DNA of 64,000 nt from Terriglobia bacterium (GTDB lineage Bacteria > Acidobacteriota > Terriglobia > UBA7540), in NCBI GenBank assembly GCA_020073545.1, contig JAIQEZ010000007.1, positions 1-64,000 on the forward strand. The letters run 5' to 3'. Shown here in pieces: positions 33,184-56,273 of the stretch. Position 1 is the stretch's first letter, and each line of letters opens with the position of its first letter. The translations under genes were made by a program, and so were the position numbers. The notes beneath the pieces were generated by a model, which was not told the origin of the DNA, did not search any database, and saw only the letters and a list, made by a program, of their open reading frames with translations.

Positions 33184-33309
33184 CCAGGCAGGTGAGTTCC
33201 CGGACGATTCGCCGGCGCATTTTCGGCCTACCGGTAGCCCGCGGGCGGTTCAGCCCGCATACCGTATGCCACCTACCACCTACGGCTTTCACCTCTTTCC
33301 TGCCGGTAG

Positions 33310-33835
33310 CCAAAATCGTATTTCACGCTCCTGACATTACCCCTGCGCTTATTGCTACTATGAGGGTGTGAGAGCTCGCGCGGCTCGATTCGTGTCAGGG
33401 CTTGCCCGACCCTCGTTGACCACGGTGCCCGGTTGTTGTAAGGGTGGGGCTCCCGACTTCGCCGGGACAGGTTGCCCTACCCTGGTTGGTCGTAACCATG
33501 AATTCGGGTACGGCCAGCCGTACCGCTACGCGGCGATCAATCAAAATGCAGGCGTCTCCGGTGATGTTAATGAAGAAAAGAGGACTTAACGAGCAAGAGC
33601 GGGAATTTCCATGGCCTGCGCCGAAAATGAAATCATCGAAATCAAAGCAGTTCTCAAGCTTGGGTGCGACCGGGACTGCGCGAAGAAAAAAAAGATGTTA
33701 AAAATGAAGGTATATCCAACGATCTCATTGAAAATAAATGGAGAGTGAAATTACCCGCGGGAATGTCCAACGATCTTGTTGAAAACAAGCTGGTTAACGG
33801 CTGAATGCAACGATGCTAATGAAAGGAAACGAGAT
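33310..33835 (+). repeat. Copy 1 of an uncharacterised repeat element (ENK-repeat element)
   Basis: Shares ordered blocks with reverse complement of 55165-55655: CTGACATTAC.CC.GCGCTT.TTGCT, GTCAGGGCTTGCCCGACCCT, CAAAATGCAGGC, GCGCGAAGAAAAA..GATGTTAA.AATGAAGGT, GAAAACAAGCTGGTTA..GCTGAATGC. Confidence 0.75.
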
Positions 33836-52508: not shown

Positions 52509-52585
52509 TGGCAGGGGTGGGGAGACTCGAACTCCCGACCCTCGGATTAGAAATCCGATGCTCTATCCGGCTGAGCTACACCCCC
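52509..52585 (-). tRNA. tRNA-Arg(TCT), CCA encoded
   Basis: GGGGGTGTAGCTCAGCCGGATAGAGCATCGGATTTCTAATCCGAGGGTCGGGAGTTCGAGTCTCCCCACCCCTGCCA; anticodon loop TTTCTAA. Confidence 0.93.
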
Positions 52586-52682: not shown

Positions 52683-52759
52683 TGGGGTGGGTGACGGGAT
52701 TCGAACCCGCGACGTCCAGATCCACAGTCTGGCGCTCTACCAGCTGAGCTACACCCACC
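52683..52759 (-). tRNA. tRNA-His(GTG), CCA encoded
   Basis: GGTGGGTGTAGCTCAGCTGGTAGAGCGCCAGACTGTGGATCTGGACGTCGCGGGTTCGAATCCCGTCACCCACCCCA; loop CTGTGGA, G-1 present. Confidence 0.93.
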
Positions 52760-55164: not shown

Positions 55165-55655
55165 CTAGCTTTTCAACAACATCGTCGCATTCAGCGACTA
55201 ACCAGCTTGTTTTCATCAATATATCCGGATCGACCTGCCGAAGACTCTCTCCATCCTTTGTTTTCATAGAGATTTCCGGATCGACCTTCATTCTTAACAT
55301 CTTTTTCTTCGCGCTGTCCCTGCCGAACCTCAATCCGACTAAGTGCTTGCATTTCAACAACTTCGTTTTCAGCCCAGGTCATAGAAAATTCCCGCACACC
55401 GTCGCTAGGTCCATTGGTTTTCATCAATATATCCGGATGAGCCTGCATTTTGTTTGATCGTCGCGTAGGGGCACGGCTTGCCGTACCCGCATTCATCGTT
55501 ACAACCAACCAGGGTCGGGCAAGCCCTGACATGAATCGCGCAGCGCGCACTCCCAAACGCGTTGCCTCCGAACGCACTACGCCGTAACTCCTCACATCTA
55601 TAGCTTAGCAACAAGCACGGGTGTAATGTCAAGGCTATGACGCACGATTTATCCT
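55165..55655 (-). repeat. Copy 2 of the ENK-repeat element (inverted relative to copy 1)
   Basis: Reverse complement shares ordered blocks with 33310-33835; internal repeats RSGYIDENK / RSGNLYENK. Confidence 0.75.
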
Positions 55656-56273
55656 GCCGGTAGCCCAAAAATGCACCGGTTGGCACCTGATTGTCCGGCG
55701 AATCCCATGCCGGAAGCAGTGGTAGGGCCGAACGGCGTTCGGCCCGCTGGGGGCGAGCAGCCTGCGCCCCAGAGGCTTCGGCCGCCGGGGCGCCGCTCGC
55801 CCCTACAAGCAAAAGAGCGCCCCGATGTGTCGGGGCGTCTCTTCCAGAAGCGCGGGTTCTGCCCGCGCCGCAATTGCCTTCGTAGAGGGGGTAGCGAAGA
55901 GTTTGCGCCTTTCAAACTCTGCGGCCTGCCTGCGCAGTCAGGCTTGAATGTTCCAGGCCATTTCGTATTTGTTCAATATGAATCGTTCCACCAGAGCGAG
56001 GTTACGGTGGTGGCGATGACCCCCGACCACGAACCGCAGAGTCTCTGGAGAACGAGACTCTGCGCTTGTATCTACCCACTCCTAACCCACTTAGGTCATT
56101 TCTAGGCGATGGGCGGTCATCGGGACCCACGCAGCGTGACCGATCTGAGGTTTCGTGCTACGATTTACAGGTGACTCCGAGCACGCAATCCGGCTGGGCG
56201 TGGATGGGTGGCAGTCGTGTTCGAAGATCCCGTTTCCACGGTGGGCGAAAGACCGTGGCCGCGAGGAGGGTAA

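Follow-up and report, generated by a model that had tools for sequence, protein, structure and literature searches.

A dispersed family of direct-repeat arrays with promoter-like heads, linked in part to an orphan protein gene, in a family of acidobacteria

The window, a stretch of 64,000 nucleotides from a contig of a Terriglobia bacterium (JAIQEZ010000007.1), contains two copies of a repeated element. Both were found where, and in the orientation in which, an earlier note had placed them, copy 1 at 33.2-33.8 kb on the plus strand and copy 2 at 55.2-55.7 kb on the minus strand. Their neighbours are ordinary, with a matrixin and an ABC-2 permease beside copy 1 and a DUF1326 gene and a methyltransferase beside copy 2. 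Two tRNA genes (52512-52585 and 52686-52758, minus strand) lie about 2.4 kb from copy 2. The 3' parts of the two copies are 74% identical over 358 bp (E about 1e-56), and a block further up is 85% identical over 53 bp (E about 1e-11). Reading and aligning both copies recovered the head, the units, the block order and the two translations that had been quoted, and the similarity extends slightly beyond the stop codon, as claimed. The statement that no transposase is adjacent holds for the window copies; complete copies elsewhere carry their own gene for an orphan protein.

The two copies have in common an operator/promoter-like head and 3-4 'ENK' units. The repeated unit is real, although it is better written YCC-NNN-(G/A/T)ATNTTNNTGAAAAYAAR than in its original form, and so written it occurs four times on the plus strand in copy 1 and four times on the minus strand in copy 2. 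Each unit consists of a ~10-bp half that is specific to the element, here called the address, followed by a constant half, TT..TGAAAAYAAR. To the head as first described we add a palindrome, CTACCGGTAG / CTGCCGGTAG, upstream of the -35-like box. The features of both copies are given below, where R1 is a sequence-only profile built from 15 copies of the window genome.

Copy 1
33228..33237, plus strand: distal head palindrome CTACCGGTAG; a second palindrome is also present in other heads
33300..33309, plus strand: proximal palindrome CTGCCGGTAG, operator-like, ~26 bp upstream of the -35-like box
33331..33361, plus strand: promoter-like CTGACA-N19-TACTAT; heads homologous, TTGACA enriched upstream of arrays
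33437..33529, plus strand: dispersed repeat (TAGGG..CCGACTTCGCCGGG..GGTACGG) lodged in the element and foreign to it
33555..33581, plus strand: unit U1, degenerate (position matrix score 14.9)
33694..33712, plus strand: conserved lead GATGTTAAAAATGAAGGT ahead of the main unit (invariant columns, alignment A1)
33713..33739, plus strand: main unit U3, address CCAACGAT (score 24.1; R1 E 3.6e-22)
33764..33790, plus strand: unit U4, address CCAACGAT as in U3, 51 bp after U3
33804..33830, plus strand: unit U5, address GCAACGAT, 40 bp after U4, 3' end of the element
Copy 2
55654..55663, minus strand: proximal palindrome CTACCGGCAG
55600..55632, minus strand: promoter-like TTGACA-N19-TAAGCT
55475..55535, minus strand: dispersed repeat as in copy 1, approximate limits
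55413..55439, minus strand: unit U1, address ATCCGGAT (position matrix score 17.4)
55256..55282, minus strand: main unit U3, address ATCCGGAA (score 23.2; R1 E 4.6e-20)
55205..55231, minus strand: unit U4, address ATCCGGAT, 51 bp after U3
55165..55191, minus strand: unit U5, address ATGCGACGAT, diverged, 40 bp after U4

The element is not the single homogeneous 0.5-kb repeat that had been proposed. Its middle block (GTCAGGGC.. with a GTACGG stem; GTCAGGGCTTGCCCGACCCT / GTACGG..GCCGTACC) is an unrelated dispersed repeat, and a search of the genome with positions 148-240 of the copy 1 query matched contigs C237, C52, C32, C143, C222, C105 and C33. At these places, which number seven or more outside the ENK elements, no ENK unit is near. 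Because it sits inside copy 1, copy 2 and the element of C231, these three probably descend from one copy. The dispersed repeat (GTAGGGGTAGGGCTTGCCCTACCC...GGTACGGCAAGCCGTACCCCTACAA) stands in tandem at C143.

The window genome (5.28 Mb, 261 contigs) contains 26 matches to copy 1, 24 sites of the unit pattern with up to one mismatch, against none for the reversed pattern, and 25 places that match R1. The profile also matches in 8 of 8 other genomes of the genus, with up to 85 matches counted in one, and more weakly in other genera of the bacterial family. In that family, the pattern RATGTTNNTGAAAAYAAR with one mismatch is present in 30 of 39 genomes and 14 of 18 genera; summed over the 39 genomes it has 829 sites, compared with 10 for the reversed control. 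When no mismatch was allowed, two single chance-like matches were obtained in 296 other acidobacterial genomes, as many as for the reversed control. The named relatives that carry the elements are metagenome-assembled genomes of uncultured Acidobacteria or Terriglobia, some labelled bog and fen. The proposed undescribed repeat family with a promoter-like head is therefore supported: rather than two isolated copies or the remnant of a known gene or insertion sequence, it comprises hundreds of units family-wide with no database match. We also found no description of it in the literature that is open without subscription. On the strength of these negative database and literature searches, the family is apparently undescribed; an earlier description in another source is possible.

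Simple repeats accompany some of the arrays. In G001, ENK units occur singly in tandem repeats of ~160-170 bp (C47, 20.3-21.0 kb, and C50; L244 and L245), each preceded by GGGGATAACCCGAGAAGTT and with CTCCTGACTCCTGG-like simple repeats between. In the window genome, heptamer-like (GGAGTTA)n or (GGAGTCA)n repeats directly follow several arrays (C89, C91, C21 and C260). Such tails are missing in other genomes, and a retrotransposon-like reading of them was rejected. A 5' truncation of the group B copies of the window genome was also dropped, as most of these copies keep a head further up.

The arrays are ordered in their spacing and in their addresses. The gaps between units peak at 39-41 bp (104 cases), 50-51 bp (98), 54-56 bp (49) and 61 bp (15), with further peaks at 85-91 and 125-127 bp. 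Gaps of 40, 51 and 61 bp correspond to about 4, 5 and 6 helical turns at about 10.2 bp per turn; those of 55 and 87 bp do not fit. The ~10-bp half is alike in all units of one element and differs between elements: units of the same element agree at 4.51 of 7 address positions, compared with 3.48±0.04 in shuffles. Position by position, in 103 arrays, the excess identity within elements is confined to -8 to +2, with sharp edges and none outside, and long-tract conversion is therefore not its cause. The address classes include CCACGAT, CCATTAT, CCGGCGAT, TCGCGAT, CCTTGAAT, CCAAGAT and CCAATGA, among others, and the same classes recur in different species. In G006, a subfamily has a 50-bp box (AGAGATGTTAAAAATGAAGGAACCTCCGGGGATGTGTATGAAAACAAAGG) that is ~100% alike in at least 11 copies (L228-L241) with diverged flanks; the lead before the main unit is likewise ~100% conserved in 11 copies of this genome. 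A short open reading frame (MQRMEDSSLRQLWRLTNVL..) runs into the box, and a hairpin and T-run lie just downstream. The near-identical, regularly spaced repeats of a CRISPR array are not seen here, as the units are degenerate and their gaps unequal but fixed (55/87/51/40).

The heads carry promoter-like signals. TTGACA occurs upstream of arrays on the same strand at 0.91 per kb, compared with 0.21 per kb for the opposite strand and 0.23 per kb for the downstream side, a 4-fold enrichment, and these boxes usually have a plausible -10 box. In the heads of the window genome, CTACCGGTAG recurs as a shared palindrome some 26 bp upstream of the -35 box. The proximal-palindrome pattern has 14 sites in this genome against none for its reverse, and most of those inspected have units downstream. 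In the heads of C231, C124 and C56, a second palindrome lies ~93 bp upstream of the proximal one, and G001 and G003 have a GTAGCCTCTA-like motif in a similar position. Promoter and operator are predicted from matches to sequence signals, which do not by themselves prove transcription.

In complete copies, a gene of 320-390 aa (~360 aa) with a ribosome-binding site lies just upstream of the array, which begins with a unit that overlaps the gene end or lies directly against it. Its product follows the pattern MSL.KK...K.AANR.NG..S.GP.T.EG..R....NLRHG.Y...LGEDP ... LM.R.EDSN.R...R..NLL.K..R, and dN/dS between copies of 0.22-0.44 indicates purifying selection. Within the genus and family, at least 7 cases of such linkage between gene and array were found. 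The window genome holds one intact 365-aa gene, spread over contigs C3 and C221 with an exact 104-bp overlap and followed by an array of class CCTTGAAT, as well as several deletion derivatives and remnants. The internal-deletion derivatives fuse N- and C-terminal parts and retain the array. By sequence, the protein has no match in Pfam, NCBIfam, PHROGs, PADLOC or PDB, and tblastn was negative in both phage and plasmid collections. Its AlphaFold model is all-helical and of moderate confidence (pLDDT 66.5, pTM 0.45), and a fold search with it returned only coiled-coil noise (best E 0.1). Distant relatives of the N-terminal region occur in a few genomes outside the family. An Acido-Lenti-1 RNA (Rfam RF01687; L212, 147-192) lies near a complete element in G003.

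Comparison with relatives suggests that the element may be mobile. Six relatives have the conserved downstream gene but lack copy 2 next to it. At the copy 1 site two of three relatives lack an array, and in the third an array from a different subfamily occupies the position with the orientation unchanged. As the other flank is rearranged in the relatives, neither copy yielded a clean empty site or a target duplication. Arrays lie within 1 kb of contig ends in 7 of 22 cases against 2.2 expected (P 0.004), as is the case for repeats generally. No terminal inverted repeats spanning the ends are common to copies 1 and 2, and searches of Pfam, NCBIfam, PHROG and PDB sequences revealed no transposase homology in complete copies. 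Pairwise, the complete copies of G002, G005 and G008 have flanks in common and seem to have been inherited vertically, which gives no support to frequent transposition. At one locus (G000:C89:1-320; L050/L078), a gcvT-like frame ends at its junction with a group-B array that comes directly after it, and the remainder of gcvT is absent from the 1.4 kb beyond. This boundary may be an insertion or an assembly junction.

The best explanation of the window copies is that they derive, by loss of the gene, from a promoter-driven genetic element present in many copies. In its complete form this element would consist of a palindrome and a sigma70-like promoter, the ~360-aa orphan gene and 3-5 direct-repeat units. 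In the reading that we tentatively favour, the units of an array serve as binding sites for the protein that the element itself encodes, or for one of its paralogues, with DNA or RNA as the ligand. The constant half TT..TGAAAAYAAR would be read by all members, the ~10-bp half would be the address of the element, and the orphan gene in the same transcription unit would encode the natural candidate for the binder. A homogeneous private address joined to a constant motif, with free neighbouring bases, looks like a set of sites for one sequence-specific binder. The gaps of about 4, 5 and 6 turns lean to a DNA ligand, and the conserved promoters of gene-less copies to an RNA ligand. Since head and array are kept after gene loss, recognition of the gene-less copies probably takes place in trans, which would make them non-autonomous copies or competitors. 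Several observations count against such self-recognition: the protein has no recognisable nucleic-acid-binding domain and a model of only moderate confidence, its N-terminal region occurs in G010, which has no units, the majority of arrays (24 to 85 or more per genome) stand without an adjoining gene, and the complete copies of G002, G005 and G008 seem to be vertically inherited. The protein-address pairs number about ten, too few for a test of co-variation. A further reading, which we consider possible but doubtful, is that of a new element class. In it, a protein family specific to this lineage would diversify together with its arrays, so that a genome holds tens of systems distinct from one another, and arrays without a gene would exploit the proteins of related elements or block them.

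Other explanations place the function elsewhere. The array could be a regulated non-coding RNA or 3' UTR that acts independently of the protein, for instance as an unstructured sponge or as identical seed sites that target messenger RNAs or an RNA-binding protein, with the gene as an optional passenger. The promoter and operator retained by gene-less copies, the strand-specific promoter enrichment and the 3-5 occurrences of an address per transcript, which resemble repeated seeds, would suit such an RNA. However, the arrays have no Rfam match, no consensus structure, a folding z-score of about 0, no enrichment of terminators downstream and no partner in cis complementary to the address beyond the control, and seed sites need no fixed spacings; we consider this explanation somewhat unlikely. 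Long-range pairing between head and array likewise showed no excess, and a striking 16-bp inverted pair in L215 is absent from its sibling copies. It is unlikely, too, that the element is a new DNA transposable element, with the array as one end bearing iteron-like sites, the orphan protein as transposase or accessory factor and the gene-less copies mobilised in trans. High copy number, deletion derivatives, the absences in relatives, the excess near contig ends and the turn-like spacings would all be accounted for. Against them stand the lack of conserved terminal inverted repeats, of a clean empty site or target duplication and of a transposase-like motif, together with the seemingly vertical inheritance of complete copies.

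Two explanations derive the units from coding sequence. We disfavour as improbable the view that they are pseudogene debris, formed when the 3' end of a decaying gene family was duplicated in tandem and conserved by recent descent only. The gene end and the first unit often share one frame (...DVxENKG) and some copies contain stops, but the conservation of the units and of their spacings far exceeds that of the adjoining sequence, as the G006 box illustrates, the promoters are conserved, and the concordance is limited to ~10 bp of the unit. Translation of the arrays into small ENK peptides is most improbable of all and we reject it, although KNEG.S.DV.ENK appears in one frame across several subfamilies and the G006 open reading frame enters the unit. 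The gaps between units do not keep the frame (mod 3: 87, 87, 48), the difference rates by codon position (0.34, 0.28 and 0.35) show no excess at the third position, only 54 of 90 cases keep the ENK frame open from one unit to its neighbour, and elements with synonymous addresses (CAC GAT, CAT GAT) form distinct groups. The earlier suggestion of a nucleic acid rather than a peptide agrees with these results; the arrays are not translated as a unit.

If the binding-site reading is right, tens of loci per genome run a recognition system of orphan proteins and private addresses in a family of peat and soil acidobacteria, without counterpart in the libraries searched. This may prove to be a new kind of mobile element or a new code by which protein and nucleic acid recognise each other, and the variation of the addresses makes specificity directly testable by swaps. 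Whatever the mechanism, a poorly understood phylum gains a large family of repeats and a conserved family of proteins, both of them unannotated.

Several known systems resemble the element in part. Multi-site regulatory RNAs of the Rsm/Csr type and sponges are also promoter-driven arrays of short repeated motifs; here, in contrast, there are no structured loops and no Rfam match, the address differs per locus, and a protein gene lies in the same unit. Type III toxin-antitoxin systems (ToxIN) also combine short repeats and a small gene in one transcription unit, whereas in our elements the repeats lie downstream of the gene at unequal spacing, and PADLOC and Pfam gave no endoribonuclease homology and no match to a defence or toxin model. 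As with MITEs and other non-autonomous repeats, many short gene-less copies accompany a few gene-bearing ones, and internal deletions occur. Unlike MITEs, no terminal inverted repeats or target duplications were found, and promoter and operator are conserved while the copies are strongly diverged. The iteron arrays of replication initiators and multi-site transposon ends (Tn7, Mu) are compared here from general knowledge, not by a homology test. The elements differ from them in having no known initiator or transposase domain and no replicon, and in the position of the array at the 3' end of a transcription unit. Like iterons and these transposon ends, however, they have several direct repeats of ~20-25 bp, in part at roughly helical distances, with the gene of a candidate binder adjoining, and the repeats are similar within an element and different between elements.
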